The notes beneath the pieces are model-generated. The model saw only the letters and a list, made by a program, of their open reading frames with translations, did no database searches and had not been told where the DNA came from. Positions 3,197 through 24,785 of a stretch of DNA of 32,435 nt are shown piece by piece. Location: the NCBI GenBank assembly GCA_017882885.1, contig JADGOQ010000115.1, positions 1 through 32,435 on the forward strand. Reading direction: 5' to 3'. The position numbers and the translations under genes were made by a program. The DNA comes from Actinomycetales bacterium (GTDB lineage: Bacteria > Actinomycetota > Actinomycetes > Actinomycetales > Actinomycetaceae). Every line of letters begins with the position of its first letter. Position 1 is the stretch's first letter.

Positions 3197-5149
3197 TCAG
3201 GCGCGCGGCCGCGTCGTCAGGACGAACACGTCATCCGTCCGCCAGTCGGCCACCGCCTCCGCGGGCGACGCGGGCCCGAGGCGCCGCGTCGTCACCCGGG
3301 CCAGCAACCGCTCGAGGGTGGAACGAGGCTGCACCTCTCCCCTGCGCACGGGTGCGGAACCCGCCACGCTGACGTCCAATTCCTCCTGCTGGAGGGAGCG
3401 GGGATCGAACTCGAGGGTGCTCGTCACCACCTTGAGCTGGTCCGTGACGGTGACCGTCCCCTCCGCCCACAACTCGTCCGACACCTGGCCCGTCAGCGCC
3501 ACCTCCGTGGACTCCCCCGGCGCCAGGGCCACCGATCCGGCGGGGAAGGCGTCGGTGAAGATGCCGTACGTCTCGGTGAGGTCGATGAGGGCGCACCACA
3601 GCGGCATGTCGGTCGTGTTCCTGATGGTGACGGTGAACGGGGGCGGGACATCGCCGGCGTACGCGATCTCGACCCGCCCGTCGTCGTCGAGGTCGCCGCC
3701 GGGCGTTCTGATGCCCATCGCCAGCGACCCTTCCGGCAACCGCGTCGCGGGGTTTCGGAGCGCCGACAGCCGTAGCCACCGGGCCACGTGCTCGAGCGCG
3801 GCGACCGTCCGCTGGTCGCGGTGCTCGCCGCTCACCACGGGGACCAGCGGGCGGGTCACCCCGGGGCGGGTGATGGTGAAGCCGTCGGCGGTGGCCTCCA
3901 CGACCACCTCGGCCGCGCGCGCATCCGGGACCAGCACGATCAGCGTCGCGTCGGCCCGGGCGGCGGCCGCCCGCAGCGCCGTCGTGCCGGCGGCGTCGCC
4001 CACCACCCCGATCGTCAGCGGACGGAGCGGGAGGGACGTGACGACGGCGCGGTAGACGAACGACTCGTCGAGCCGGGTGGAGAGGGACACGAGCGAGCGG
4101 TCGGCCAGGACCCGGGTGACGGTCGCCGTCGCCAGGGGCGCCGACGTCGTCGCACCGGTGAGCGGGTGGATGGCCAGTTCGGTCGTGTCCTCCCCGACGG
4201 GATCTGGCAGGCCGTGGACCGCGCCCGCGTCGATGCTCCAGCCGTCGGGCAGGTGGCTCAGGGTCAATTGCCGGGGTGACGGGGGGACGGCACCGCCGAG
4301 GAAGGGCCGGTCGAGGTCGGTGGGATCCGGGGCCTCCACCTGCGGGTGCTGCGACTCCACCTTCCGCATCACGTCCGCGGTGACGTGCCGGAGCACCTGC
4401 CGGTACGTGAGCTGGCCGCCACCCTCCCGGAGCGCCGTCTCCAGGGCCGCGGAGAGGGCACCGCGCCCGCGGCCGAGGACGTTGACCTCCTTGGCCGTCT
4501 CGGAGGACCGGCAGGCCGCGAGCAGCACCTGCGACCCGGCGAGCCCCCACCGCGCCTCCAGCGATCGTGTGGCGCCGCCGGTCGTCGGGGCCACGCCGGT
4601 CACACCCGGGAGGAAGCTGTCGAACGGGCGCACGCGGTAGTCCTCGGGCGCGAGGCGAAGCCGCACGCCGGCCACCACATCCCGGGTGCCGCCGCCGGAG
4701 TGGCAGCAGTCGAGGACGGTGAGCACGTGGCCGCCCCGCGCCGCGACCTCCCCGAGCAGGACCGCGAACTCCTTGTCCGCCAGGTCCCACTGCCCGGGCT
4801 GCCGGCTGTCCACGAGCACGATCGTCTCGTTGCGGTGGTCGGGCTCCAGGGGCCACAGCTCGGCGGGCGACTCCTGCTGCGAGCCGTGCCCGCTGTAGTA
4901 CAGCAGCGCGACGTCGTCCGGACCGGCCTGCCCCAGGTGCTCCCGCATCGCGCCCACCACGGCCGCTCGGGTCGCCGCCGCATCCGTGAGCATCCGCAGG
5001 TCCAACGCGTCCTCGCCGACGCGACCCCGCAGGACCTCGGCGAACGCCGTCACGTCGTTGACGCAGCCGCCGAGTTGCGGCACCGGCGCCGGGTAGGCGT
5101 CGATGCCGATGAGGAGCGCGATGAGCCGGCCCGGCCGGGTGGCGCTCAC
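3197..5149 (-). CDS. Caspase-family (peptidase C14) protease
   Basis: 650-residue bacterial caspase/metacaspase-type cysteine protease. The GTG start at 5149 overlaps the TGA stop of the upstream CHAT gene in a GTGA junction, so the two are co-transcribed and probably translationally coupled; a longer open frame upstream lies inside the CHAT gene and is not used. The catalytic domain covers about residues 8-270: the first strand LIALLIGIDAY, the histidine in YYSGHGSQ (His88) and the cysteine in VLDCCHSGG (Cys149, second Cys). Both dyad residues are intact. A further caspase-fold element is VLLAACRSSETAKE. After about residue 290 come beta-rich segments, including one at about 545-610 (FTVTIRNTTDMPLWCALIDL, then LAPGESTEVALTG) that looks like an immunoglobulin-type sandwich. 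There is no signal peptide or membrane helix, so it should be cytoplasmic. Substrate and activation signal are unknown; the CHAT partner is the obvious candidate upstream factor. Confidence 0.88.
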   Translation of the reverse strand: MSATRPGRLIALLIGIDAYPAPVPQLGGCVNDVTAFAEVLRGRVGEDALDLRMLTDAAATRAAVVGAMREHLGQAGPDDVALLYYSGHGSQQESPAELWPLEPDHRNETIVLVDSRQPGQWDLADKEFAVLLGEVAARGGHVLTVLDCCHSGGGTRDVVAGVRLRLAPEDYRVRPFDSFLPGVTGVAPTTGGATRSLEARWGLAGSQVLLAACRSSETAKEVNVLGRGRGALSAALETALREGGGQLTYRQVLRHVTADVMRKVESQHPQVEAPDPTDLDRPFLGGAVPPSPRQLTLSHLPDGWSIDAGAVHGLPDPVGEDTTELAIHPLTGATTSAPLATATVTRVLADRSLVSLSTRLDESFVYRAVVTSLPLRPLTIGVVGDAAGTTALRAAAARADATLIVLVPDARAAEVVVEATADGFTITRPGVTRPLVPVVSGEHRDQRTVAALEHVARWLRLSALRNPATRLPEGSLAMGIRTPGGDLDDDGRVEIAYAGDVPPPFTVTIRNTTDMPLWCALIDLTETYGIFTDAFPAGSVALAPGESTEVALTGQVSDELWAEGTVTVTDQLKVVTSTLEFDPRSLQQEELDVSVAGSAPVRRGEVQPRSTLERLLARVTTRRLGPASPAEAVADWRTDDVFVLTTRPRA

Positions 5150-7476
5150 GCCGTGTCCTCGAGCACCAGCCACTGCCAGGTGCCGGGATGCGGCTGGTTG
5201 GCGCCGGTGCGGTCCGGGTTGCTGCTGATCAACCGTGCGAGCTCCCACGAGCGGCTGACCGCCGCGTCGCTGACGTTCAGGTTGGCGGCGAAGACGTCGC
5301 CCCGCGACGGGGATCCCACCCCCAGTGCCACCCACGGGATCCGCGCCTCGATCTCGTAACCGTCGGCGGTCCGGACGGCCGCCGTGGTCATGGCGGGCTC
5401 CAGCAGCCCCGCCTGGAAGGTGTTCCGTGCCGTGACGTTGACAGCGGCGGCCGCCCCGTCCGCCGTGACGCCGATCATGACGTGCCGGTCGAGCCCATTT
5501 CGCACCGGGTCCCCGGCGCCGAGCCCGCGCGGATCCGGGCCGAACTCGAACGAGATCGAGTCCCCGCGCCAGAACTGGCTGGGCTGCCCGAGATCCACTT
5601 CGGTGATCGCCGGGTCGGTGACCTCGACGTGCAGGTAGAGTGCCTCGCGGTCCCACTGGGCTTGCCAGATGGACGAGAAGTCGGCCGGTGGGGGGCTTAC
5701 GGGGAACACCTGGTTCTCGACCCCCACGCCCGGGAGTTCCCACCACTCCGCGAAGTCGCCGTCAACCCGCGGCGCAGTGGTCGCGCAACTGGCGGACAGG
5801 GCGCCGACCGCGGTCGGCGCCGCGGGCGCCGGGCCGCACGCTGCCGCGATGGCGTCCACCGCGGCCGTGGGTTCGGACGCCGCCGTGGAACCGTCCGTGG
5901 GCTCGGCCGCGGCGGTGGGCGTGACCTGATCGCCCGGATCGCCGCGGAGCGTTTCCAGGAACACGAGGATCATGAACAGCACCGCGCCGAGCGCGACCAC
6001 GCCGCCGATCAAGCGCAGCCAGATGCGCGGACGAGATCGGCCGATCGCGGAGCCCCCGCCCGGCCGGTCGCCGTCCGCCCCGCCCGGCCGTCCGCTATCG
6101 GCGGGGGGTTGGCCGACGTCGGCGTGACCCGCGGCGGTGGCGGGCACGCGCGCCGTCACCGCGGGCGGCGCCACAGCCACCGGGGTCTCCCCGGTGACCG
6201 CCGGCCGCACGCGCTCGATCAGCTCCGTGACGTCCTGGTAGCCGGGCCGCTCGGACGCGAGTTGCTCGAGCATGGGCAGGGCCGTCTCGGGCGCGTTCGC
6301 GGCGAGTGCTCCCTGCGCGCCCTCGTAGAGCGACTCCCAGCGCCCCTCCCGGGCCGGCGCGGCGGCAGCAGCCGTGGGTTTGATGGAGAATGGCTGGTCC
6401 ACGCCGGAGCGCAGCAGCACCGCGGTGCCCCACTCGGACGCCTCGTCCGAGATGGCCATCGCCTTGCGCACCTCGCACATGGCGGCGTCGATGGGCAGGC
6501 CGCGCGTCAGGAACCAGTAGAACTCGTGGGTGAACACGAGGGCGGCCCGGTCCGAGATCTCGGTCTGCATGGCCACCACGGCGGGCAGGCCCCGCCGCAC
6601 GAACTCCTGCGCGACCCCGGAGAACGCGTCGCGTCCCGAGCTGCGCGCCCCCTCGCAGGCGTTGAGCACGGCCAACTGCAGGCCGCGGGCGTCGTGCAGC
6701 AGCGTCCCGAGGCGCGAGCCGCTCACCCGATGGGCGGTGCCGTCCTCGCGCTCGAGGACGAGGACGCCCTCCTGGCTCTCCTGGTCGAACCCACCGTGCC
6801 CGACGAAGTGGAAGACGTGGTACTCGTCGAGGAGCGCGCGCTGGAGTTCGGTTAGCGTCGCGTTCTCAAGGACCACCAGCTCCAGCTGCCCGCTCTTGAC
6901 GAGGTCCCCGGTGGTCGCGCGCAGCAGCTGTTCCTCACGCTCGACCGCGAGTTCGGGCATGTCGCTGGGGCTGGAGATCATGACCAGCACCCGCAGCGGC
7001 GGCTCGACGGTGATGACCGGCGGCCGCTCGAGCGAGTCCATGAGCCGGACGAGCGGTGTCTCCTTGGACAGTGTGAGGAAGCGGTCGAGCCGGGTGTCGT
7101 AGAGGTACTCCCACGGGACTGGGTCGAGCTCCGGGACGGCGTCGAGCCGCAGCCGGACGCGCAGGTCGCGGCCCTGCGACGTGGCGGCGGCGAGGCTCGC
7201 GCGGAATGCGGTGTCGACGTCGCCGGAGAGGAGCGCCCGCCCGAGTCGCGAGCCGTAGTCCTTGACGTCGACGACGCGGGAGGCGGCGGGGACCAGGCGC
7301 CGCGACGAGACGCGCGGCGGCCCGACGGCGACCATGAACTGGGCGAGGTCGGCGGCGCCGAACGGGAGGGCGAAGGGCGCCGACGCCTCCCCGGCGGGCG
7401 AGGCGAGGACGTTGGCGGCGTACCCCGTGCCGTCGCGCGTGATGGCGATGTCGAAGTCGAGATAGTCACTGGCCAT
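5146..7476 (-). CDS. Membrane-anchored CHAT-domain protease with CBM9-like extracellular domain
   Basis: 776-residue protein in three parts. Residues 1-150 form the N-terminal region common to large bacterial CHAT proteins (LRVRLRLDAVPELDPVPWEYLYD at about 105-127). The CHAT caspase-like protease domain spans about 160-365, with the dyad His227 in HFVGHGGF and Cys274 in AVLNACEGA, both intact; the conserved VVAMQTEISDRAA follows. A short helical repeat-like stretch (about 380-425) and a Pro/Ala-rich linker lead to one membrane helix (about 486-508). The C-terminal 250 residues begin with a Thr/Ala/Pro linker and contain a carbohydrate-binding-module-9-like domain (VDGDFAEWWELPG, then IWQAQWDREALYLHVEVTD, then WRGDSISFEFGPD). 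With Arg-rich sequence before the helix, the protease should face the cytoplasm and the CBM9-like domain the outside. It is the first gene of a two-gene operon with the caspase and is divergent from the iron transporter. Confidence 0.87.
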   Translation of the reverse strand: MASDYLDFDIAITRDGTGYAANVLASPAGEASAPFALPFGAADLAQFMVAVGPPRVSSRRLVPAASRVVDVKDYGSRLGRALLSGDVDTAFRASLAAATSQGRDLRVRLRLDAVPELDPVPWEYLYDTRLDRFLTLSKETPLVRLMDSLERPPVITVEPPLRVLVMISSPSDMPELAVEREEQLLRATTGDLVKSGQLELVVLENATLTELQRALLDEYHVFHFVGHGGFDQESQEGVLVLEREDGTAHRVSGSRLGTLLHDARGLQLAVLNACEGARSSGRDAFSGVAQEFVRRGLPAVVAMQTEISDRAALVFTHEFYWFLTRGLPIDAAMCEVRKAMAISDEASEWGTAVLLRSGVDQPFSIKPTAAAAAPAREGRWESLYEGAQGALAANAPETALPMLEQLASERPGYQDVTELIERVRPAVTGETPVAVAPPAVTARVPATAAGHADVGQPPADSGRPGGADGDRPGGGSAIGRSRPRIWLRLIGGVVALGAVLFMILVFLETLRGDPGDQVTPTAAAEPTDGSTAASEPTAAVDAIAAACGPAPAAPTAVGALSASCATTAPRVDGDFAEWWELPGVGVENQVFPVSPPPADFSSIWQAQWDREALYLHVEVTDPAITEVDLGQPSQFWRGDSISFEFGPDPRGLGAGDPVRNGLDRHVMIGVTADGAAAAVNVTARNTFQAGLLEPAMTTAAVRTADGYEIEARIPWVALGVGSPSRGDVFAANLNVSDAAVSRSWELARLISSNPDRTGANQPHPGTWQWLVLEDTA

Positions 7477-7587: not shown

Positions 7588-7611
7588 TTACGCAACAGCA
7601 CTGTTGCGTAA
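7588..7611. promoter_or_regulatory. Perfect palindromic operator candidate
   Basis: Arms of 11 bp, TTACGCAACAG and CTGTTGCGTAA, are separated by 2 nt. The site lies in the 203-nt divergent gap between the CHAT gene and the iron-binding protein gene and covers a possible -35 (TTGCGT, 7604-7609) of the iron operon. Such symmetry suggests a dimeric repressor of TetR or similar type; it could act on either divergent gene. No regulator gene is adjacent. Confidence 0.6.
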
Positions 7612-7626
7612 TTGCCGGTTCTCAGG

Positions 7627-7645
7627 TTAGGTTTGCCCTACCCGC
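7627..7645 (+). promoter_or_regulatory. IdeR/DtxR-like iron box overlapping the -10
   Basis: The 19 bases match the known IdeR/DtxR consensus at 13 of 19 positions by eye, including TTAGGTT and the central GCC. The hexamer TAGGTT (7628-7633) inside it fits a -10 placed 18 nt after TTGCGT. Iron-loaded IdeR bound here would block the ferric importer promoter, which agrees with the product of the gene downstream. Confidence 0.6.
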
Positions 7646-7679
7646 CCGGGCTCGCCGGGTCCCGCCCCCAAGGAACGCC

Positions 7680-8723
7680 ATGACCACCCAGCTCCTCCGC
7701 GTCCGGCGGGGCGCCGTCGGCGCAATCGCCCTCGCCCTCGCGGCCGGACTCGCCGCCTGCTCCAGCGCCGAGTCCTCCCCGAACACCAGCGCTTCCGCGG
7801 AGACGCTCACGATCTACTCGGGACGCAACGAGAACCTTGTCGGCCCGATCCTGGAGGGCCTGGAGGACGCGGTGGGCACCCCGGTCGAGGTCCGTTACGC
7901 CGGCTCCAGCGAGCTCGCCGCCCAGTTGCTCGAGGAGGGCGCGGCCACCGACGCCGACATCTTCTTCTCGCAGGACGCCGGGGCGCTCGGCGCGCTGGCC
8001 AACGCCGGCCGGTTCGCCACCCTGCCCGACGACGTGCTGGACCTGGTCCCCGAGAGGTTCCGCGACACCGACGGCCGTTGGGTGGCCACCTCGGCCCGCG
8101 CCCGCGTTCTCGCCTACGCTCCCGCCCTGGCCCCCGAGGTGGAACAGATGACCGGGATCGACCAGATACTCGACGAGAAGTACCGCGGCCTCATCGGCTA
8201 CGCGCCCACCAACGCCTCCTTCCAGACCTTCGTCACCGCGCTGCGGGTGGACCGCGGGGAGGAGGGCGCCCGGGAGTGGCTCGAGCGGTTCGCGGCGCTC
8301 GATCCCCAGGCCTTCGACAACAACCCCGCCGTCCTCGACGCCGTCGACGGCGGCCAGGTCGCCATCGGCCTGATCAACCACTACTACTGGTACGAGCAGG
8401 TGGCGGAGAAGGGTGCGGACGCCGTCTCCGCCCGTATCCGCTTCCTGACCAGCGACGACCCCGGGGCGCTGGTCAACGTCGCCGGTGTGGGCGTGCTGGA
8501 CGGGAGCGACTCCCCCGCCGCGCTCGCGGCCGTCAAGTACCTGCTCTCCGCGGAGGTGCAGCAGTACTTCGCCGACGAGACGGCCGAGTACCCGGTGGTC
8601 CCGGGCGTGACCACGACGGTGCACGACCTGGCGCCGCTCGGCGAGGGGCTCGTCATCGACCTGAACGATCTCGATTCCCTCGAGGAGACCCTCGCGCTCC
8701 TGGACGAGGTCGGACTGACCTGA
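7680..8723 (+). CDS. Ferric-iron ABC transporter substrate-binding lipoprotein
   Basis: 347-residue periplasmic-type binding protein of the FbpA/FutA iron class, tethered outside the membrane as a lipoprotein. Residues 1-26 form a signal peptide ending in the lipobox LAAC (Cys27). The mature part starts with TLTIYSGRNENLVGPILEG, typical of this class, and has ADIFFSQDAGALGAL, the domain-crossing region and GLINHYYWYEQ, whose paired tyrosines match the iron-coordinating tyrosines of FbpA-type proteins. The start at 7680 gives a proper signal peptide, preceded by AAGGAA; the open frame continues upstream through the promoter region and is not used. It is the first gene of a three-gene operon; permease and ATPase follow within 2 nt and by overlap. 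Probably iron-repressed through the IdeR-like box. Confidence 0.92.
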   Translation: MTTQLLRVRRGAVGAIALALAAGLAACSSAESSPNTSASAETLTIYSGRNENLVGPILEGLEDAVGTPVEVRYAGSSELAAQLLEEGAATDADIFFSQDAGALGALANAGRFATLPDDVLDLVPERFRDTDGRWVATSARARVLAYAPALAPEVEQMTGIDQILDEKYRGLIGYAPTNASFQTFVTALRVDRGEEGAREWLERFAALDPQAFDNNPAVLDAVDGGQVAIGLINHYYWYEQVAEKGADAVSARIRFLTSDDPGALVNVAGVGVLDGSDSPAALAAVKYLLSAEVQQYFADETAEYPVVPGVTTTVHDLAPLGEGLVIDLNDLDSLEETLALLDEVGLT

Positions 8724-24541: not shown

Positions 24542-24547
24542 CATTCT

Positions 24548-24645
24548 CCATCGGTCCTGGCTGAAGCACCCTCGCCGCCGCAGGATCTCCGCGTCAGGGG
24601 TTGCTGCGACGTCGACGAGCCAGGTCTCTCGGTCGCTCTGGATGG
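24548..24645 (-). ncRNA. SAM-clan riboswitch (SAM-IV-like) in the metF-metE leader
   Basis: Read on the minus strand, the leader has the SAM-I/SAM-IV core: outer stem P1 CCATC with GATGG; P2 GCGAC with GTCGC followed by GCAACC; a P3 region with CGCGG and CCTGCG; then GGGTGC. The P2 loop CCTGGCT pairs perfectly with the downstream AGCCAGG as the expected pseudoknot, and P1 closes right after it as in SAM-IV rather than after a P4 as in SAM-I. The P1 3' strand shares bases with the metF Shine-Dalgarno GGAGA, so SAM binding should hide it and lower translation. No terminator is seen, in keeping with translational control. I aligned this by eye. Confidence 0.75.
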
Positions 24646-24785
24646 TGGTTACTCGATGATCGCGCCGCGGTCCGCCCGCTGGGGCGCGGGTCCATGGGGT
24701 GAGACGCCGCCGCCAGCCCGTGAGACGCCGTCGGACGCCGCGGCGTCACCCCGGCGCGCTGGTGTGCCCACCCCGTCATCACTCG

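Follow-up and report, generated by a model that had tools for sequence, protein, structure and literature searches.

The locus described here raises the question of what two different caspase-clan proteases do when their genes are joined end to end, and why one of them should span the membrane and carry a carbohydrate-binding type of domain on the outside. The window, by which we mean the whole stretch of DNA that was analysed, is 32,435 nucleotides long, and the features of the gene pair within it are listed in Table 1. The genes are joined by a 4-base GTGA overlap, in which the caspase gene has its GTG start at 5149 and the CHAT gene its TGA stop at 5148–5146; this overlap and the intact dyads (His227/Cys274 and His88/Cys149) are present at the positions and residues given in an earlier note on this DNA. 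The two-gene arrangement is confirmed not to be a product of chance, since the GC content by codon position of both open reading frames fits coding sequence, the dyads are invariant, and the folded parts all have a dN/dS far under 1. One member of the pair is a CHAT protein that includes a CBM9-fold domain; the other is a metacaspase-like protein of family C14. Our preferred answer, held tentatively and with slightly less than even confidence, is that the pair forms a ligand-gated transmembrane receptor protease acting with, and probably switching on, a dedicated Arg/Lys-specific caspase.

Table 1. Features of the CHAT–caspase gene pair, with coordinates as positions in the window.
Feature	Coordinates	Strand	Basis
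CHAT-TM-CBM9 receptor-protease gene (putative receptor function)	5146..7476	(-)	776 aa; ORF, Pfam, homologues
CHAT protease domain, residues 74-345	6442..7257	(-)	Pfam, dyad alignment, fold match to SAVED-CHAT 8tl0
TPR-like helical segment, residues 378-428	6193..6345	(-)	three helices in model; conserved in alignment
Transmembrane helix, residues 489-507	5956..6012	(-)	N-in/C-out by positive-inside rule, 20/20 homologues
Cys547 and Cys564, likely extracellular disulphide	5785..5838	(-)	alignment of 20 CHATs
CBM9-fold ectodomain, residues 565-776	5149..5784	(-)	Pfam CBM9_1, 1i82 profile match, Foldseek
Caspase (Peptidase C14, metacaspase-like) gene	3197..5149	(-)	650 aa, GTG start
Caspase catalytic domain, dyad His88/Cys149	4319..5122	(-)	alignment; S1 residues by motif spacing
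Linker between caspase halves, residues 176-206, candidate processing site	4532..4624	(-)	variable, low model confidence
Caspase C-terminal region, residues 290-650	3200..4282	(-)	conserved, mainly beta

The product of the upstream gene matches the CHAT family over residues 74–345 (PF12770, 113 bits in Pfam), and its His227/Cys274 dyad is invariant in all 20 aligned CHAT homologues. The TPR-like segment (378–428) sits between the CHAT domain and a disordered, fast-evolving linker (residues 433–489), which precedes the transmembrane helix and is rich in arginine near the membrane. The profile built from the 20 CHATs matches both SAVED-CHAT (8tl0) and the CBM9 structure 1i82, and a Foldseek search with an AlphaFold model, in which the placement of domains is unreliable (pTM 0.43), ranks CBM9 structures first and SAVED-CHAT next, with MALT1 and caspases lower. 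The best CHAT-type fold match of the model is 8tl0, and Csx29 (7y9x) is a weak one. A PADLOC match to the protein is restricted to residues 160–377.

The earlier note had proposed a single membrane helix with a CBM9-like domain outside, and several lines of evidence agree with it. CBM9_1 scores 37 bits against a Pfam cut-off of 23, the CHAT profile matches 1i82, the CBM9 of a Thermotoga xylanase, at E=1e-14, Foldseek returns 1i82, 7nwn and 7nwo with TM-scores of 0.76–0.80 of the target, and the pLDDT over this region is mostly about 90–97. Profile and fold comparison thus confirm a CBM9 fold for the ectodomain, with glycan binding itself only putative; tryptophan residues are conserved in the alignment, and the sugar-binding positions are not mappable with confidence. 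Lysine and arginine are more frequent N-terminal than C-terminal of the helix in 20 of 20 homologues, so that the CHAT domain is predicted to lie inside and the CBM9 domain outside. Cys547 and Cys564 are each kept in 18 of the 20 CHATs and are absent together from L030 and L031, which is the behaviour expected of the extracellular disulphide that they likely form.

The caspase matches Peptidase_C14 (72 bits in Pfam) and resembles metacaspases in sequence and fold. His88 and Cys149, together with Cys29, Asp32, Ser86 and Asp147, are invariant among 18 aligned caspases, and the latter four have the same spacing to the dyad motifs as the S1-pocket residues of TbMCA2 (Cys92, Asp95, Ser156 and Asp211; PMC4357240); a preference for Arg or Lys at P1 is therefore predicted. 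In the linker between the caspase halves (176–206), 16 of the 18 homologues have an arginine after T, V, A or Q, an incompletely conserved feature that could mean autoprocessing. The C-terminal region is conserved in 18/18 homologues and has weak matches to Ig-like/SPD-2 folds, and no Pfam family was found for residues 290–650. A Pfam scan revealed no evident sensor domain on the caspase.

The earlier note had named two findings that would speak against its idea, a C-terminal domain lacking the CBM9 fold and genes that are mostly apart in related genomes. The first is contradicted by the fold evidence above, and the second by the pairing that we find. Using the CHAT protein alone as query against 84,980 species genomes, with six search peptides, we identified 17 close CHAT loci, assigned to Terrabacter, Terracoccus, Humibacillus, Intrasporangium or Dermatophilaceae/Intrasporangiaceae; two of the six peptides derive from the ectodomain, which favours CBM9-bearing matches and makes the shared CBM9 tail partly an effect of ascertainment. 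A caspase, 57–68% identical over nearly its full length, adjoins the CHAT gene at 17/17 of these loci, which include close relatives and therefore represent fewer than 17 independent cases. The CHAT gene is doubled ahead of the caspase in L016, and L018 has an extra CHAT downstream of it. In another family of the order, four genomes (L092–L095) contain the same CHAT-TM-CBM9 and caspase genes in divergent orientation. The pairing has thus survived a rearrangement of gene order, and this is the strongest sign that the two genes are coupled. Other types of CHAT adjoin caspase genes as well (L091, L097 and L098), and in distant CHAT–caspase pairs the caspase is fused to an alpha/beta-hydrolase or the partner is a DUF7363-CHAT protein; counts at the order and phylum levels come from samples of genomes. 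We found no paper on a CHAT-TM-CBM9 protein paired with a caspase in a literature search whose coverage left out most subscription journals.

The pair lies outside the HetF, EACC1 System 4, SAVED-CHAT, Craspase and gasdermin systems, as it misses a defining feature of each. The known bacterial caspase-clan systems compared here respond to nucleic acids, nucleotides or events within the cell. The cascade of the SAVED-CHAT proteins is reported to run through a caspase. As in SAVED-CHAT (type III-B CRISPR; Steens et al. 2024, by way of PMC11229360), the protease is a CHAT domain under a fused sensor and part of a proteolytic cascade, a hypothetical one in our case; the sensor here, however, is an extracellular CBM9 domain across a membrane helix, and neither a SAVED domain in the CHAT protein (Pfam) nor a cyclic-nucleotide synthase, Cas10, CRISPR or CBASS gene in the window was found. 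SAVED-CHAT proteins confer immunity through a 'cascade of proteolytic activity', in the wording of PMC11229360. The earlier note had taken gasdermin operons and Csx29 as its precedents; for the hypothetical step in which CHAT cuts the caspase, the SAVED-CHAT cascade is a better precedent than either. No gasdermin pore-former and no gRAMP/Cas7-11 (the partner in Craspase) is among the annotated ORFs of the window. As the earlier note states, no pore-former, nuclease or CRISPR gene is adjacent, and the scanned ORFs of the window include no nuclease, pore-former or Cas gene. The pair may nevertheless operate in the manner of the SAVED-CHAT cascade, only with another sensor.

The remaining comparisons are with systems that share part of the architecture. 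HetF, a cyanobacterial CHAT-TM-TPR protein of the divisome and of heterocysts, also has an N-terminal CHAT domain and a single transmembrane helix, but a CBM9 ectodomain and a caspase partner are not described for it in PMC8406250, and the HetF model NF045509 (NCBIfam) reaches 74 bits where its cut-off is 1200, over the CHAT part only. The EACC1-caspase 'System 4' of Kaur et al. 2020 is similarly an actinobacterial two-gene unit, whose 5′ gene encodes one conserved TM helix and whose 3′ gene is a caspase (PMC7159879); modules that join a TM helix to an extracellular binding protein are described in that work as well. In the present pair, however, the 5′ gene codes for a protease in its own right, and the C-terminus of the caspase is constant whereas that of System 4 is hypervariable; the CHAT protein has no match to an EACC1 domain in Pfam or NCBIfam, and caspase_w_EACC1 (NCBIfam) gives 50 bits where its cut-off is 140. 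With metacaspases (AtMCA-IIf, AtMC4 and TbMCA2) the caspase shares its fold, dyad and S1-pocket residues, and it differs in being bacterial, in its large conserved C-terminal beta region and in having a CHAT partner gene. The xylanase CBM9 modules (1i82, 7nwn) share fold and sequence family with the ectodomain, but serve there to target a xylanase and here form the outer part of a membrane protease.

We propose that the CBM9-fold ectodomain would bind an external ligand, for which an envelope or environmental glycan is the simplest candidate, and that binding would alter how the cytoplasmic CHAT/TPR-like part is assembled and turn the protease on. The co-translated caspase would be its dedicated partner and probable substrate, which CHAT would cut, for example in the variable p20/p10-type linker, to give an active enzyme that cleaves after Arg or Lys and by which the cell might be altered or shut down. 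The ligand class, the gating by assembly, the direction of cleavage and the cellular outcome are the parts that we infer; cleavage from CHAT to caspase is plausible by analogy with the proteolytic cascade of SAVED-CHAT. If true, the pair would relay a signal by proteolysis directly from the outside of a bacterial cell to its inside. The specific prediction is that the caspase linker is cut behind a basic residue in a ligand-dependent way, testable in cultured, named strains of Terrabacter, Humibacillus and Intrasporangium.

The main rival to the CHAT-to-caspase order is the reverse, in which an Arg/Lys-type caspase acts upstream and cuts the juxtamembrane linker of the CHAT protein, freeing the CHAT protease or shedding the ectodomain. 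The metacaspase S1 residues of the caspase are compatible with this, as is the CHAT linker, which is long, disordered, fast-evolving and Arg-rich beside the membrane, but it leaves the placement of the sensor on the CHAT protein unexplained, with no evident sensor domain on the caspase, and we consider it unlikely.

The history of the operon and the selection acting on it bear on a second alternative, in which the membrane CHAT senses a cell-wall glycan and tunes division or the envelope by limited proteolysis, without cell death, as a housekeeping function resembling that of HetF, itself a one-TM CHAT protein of the divisome (PMC8406250). Most of the Dermatophilaceae loci have a largely common neighbourhood, with leuS-like and nadD-like genes among its members, and this suggests that the operon is inherited vertically in this family. 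Among six close relatives, dN/dS is 0.05–0.13 for the N-terminal CHAT part, 0.12–0.32 for the ectodomain, 0.12–0.23 for the caspase and 0.35–0.77 for the linker/TM part, so that all folded parts are, by these ratios, under purifying selection. Diversifying selection on the ectodomain is not seen, and its low values indicate a constrained sensor with no evident arms race. Both patterns would suit a housekeeping role, but the distribution of the operon around its host is patchy. The window locus differs from the Dermatophilaceae chromosomal setting and is flanked by a tocopherol-cyclase-like gene on one side and an Fe-type ABC transporter on the other, with a GNAT gene also nearby. No CHAT orthologue occurs in 213 genomes of the host's family beyond the host itself, and in three congeners the same two flanks enclose a short spacer in place of the operon, which in one of them (G069) retains a relic of about 101 bases with 82% identity to the caspase 3′ end (L051 6884-7001, G069:C321). 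By this comparison the operon is accessory in the host genus, and the simplest reading is that an ancestor gained it, perhaps from a Dermatophilaceae-like donor, and that it was lost in G069. In trees the window sequences fall among Dermatophilaceae, near Intrasporangium oryzae, with modest support (80/81 for the caspase), and the CHAT and caspase trees are largely congruent. With this patchiness and the low HetF score, a housekeeping role is also doubtful, to about the same degree as the reverse order.

Two other possibilities were considered for the locus as such. Contamination of the contig is an unlikely source of the odd distribution, as orthologues of the flanking genes are present in congeners (MetE at 86–89%) in the same gene order. 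A conserved third gene was also rejected, since the candidates (clusters 17 and 18) follow the pair in just 3–4 of 17 loci; by eye, these are glycosidase- and glycosyltransferase-like.

Phage defence or abortive infection, in which the module would sense a damaged envelope or a carbohydrate-active enzyme of a phage and kill the cell, is quite improbable. In its favour, the operon has been gained and lost within the host genus, relatives of the CHAT protein lie beside Trypco1, and other CHATs of the host have weak EAD7 matches. Against it, no defence island was seen around the operon among the window ORFs, the sensor lacks diversifying selection, and the locus is fixed in most Dermatophilaceae loci. 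A phage or plasmid origin is likewise not favoured: there were no matches in viral contigs, no full-length match in plasmids, and a single bacterial-looking record among phages. That record (L104, MT836801.1), named Bacteriophage sp. (UNVERIFIED), resembles an actinobacterial scaffold, apparently mislabelled, in its 74.7% GC and in genes that by eye are subtilase-like and ROK-like. The view in the earlier note that envelope stress or development is as likely as phage defence is a fair one, with evidence on both sides: an arms race is made less likely by the vertical inheritance in Dermatophilaceae and by the purifying selection on the ectodomain, and a conflict-type role is favoured by the patchy loss and gain and by the Trypco1/EAD7 partners that related CHATs have. 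Finally, it is very improbable that the genes are co-transcribed yet act separately, their adjacency being historical: loci with just one of the two do exist (no caspase was detected within the 8.7 kb of L104, a CHAT-TM-CBM9 record, and no CHAT within 20 kb of the G069 caspase paralogue in L053), but the pair occurs in two gene orders across families and is adjacent throughout the 17 loci within one.

The reading of the CHAT protein as a receptor protease that acts on its caspase has a wider form. Related CHAT modules, 34–43% identical mostly over about 340–390 residues, have different C-termini: of three paralogues in one genome (G668), one has a transmembrane helix and a solute-binding domain (L127), one a transmembrane helix and a short ectodomain (L125), and one a dynamin GTPase (L126), and elsewhere there is a CHAT-WD40 protein (L129) and CHAT genes adjoining a Trypco1 gene (L105 and L128). 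The receptor-protease idea derives from this variety on one module, which suggests a constant protease with exchangeable sensors. We speculate, with somewhat less confidence than for the proposed action of the pair, that Actinobacteria possess a family of transmembrane receptor proteases in which a linker and one transmembrane helix connect a constant cytoplasmic CHAT module to exchangeable ectodomains (CBM9, solute-binding protein or other short ectodomains), of which the CBM9 type would relay a glycan signal proteolytically to a dedicated caspase; within that same speculative reading, the family might be the caspase-clan counterpart of receptor kinases. Trypco1 and EAD7 are components of predicted conflict systems (PMC7159879), and these ties link the CHAT module to predicted-conflict parts, with a conflict role itself unproven.

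Several further observations were made in the host and its relatives. The host has two more CHAT genes (L054, G000:C72), each with a weak match to the effector-associated domain EAD7. In G069 the caspase paralogue (L053 6074-14475, G069:C335) is followed by a TY-Chap1 chaperone, a ClpB-like ATPase, a PASTA protein and a vWA/GDSL protein, possibly a separate conflict-type cluster. One Humibacillus xanthopallidus strain has a second CHAT gene (L016 10320-12611) where another has a short gap (L027 10283-10449), so that a sensor paralogue has likely been gained by one or lost by the other. In the window, the spacer ahead of the Fe-type ABC transporter (7600-7680) contains TTAGGTTTGCCCTACC, which by eye resembles a DtxR/IdeR iron box, and this spacer is partly conserved in the three congeners. 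A SAM-I riboswitch (RF00162, 46.5 bits) is present at 24545-24648 (-), upstream of the MTHFR-MetE genes.
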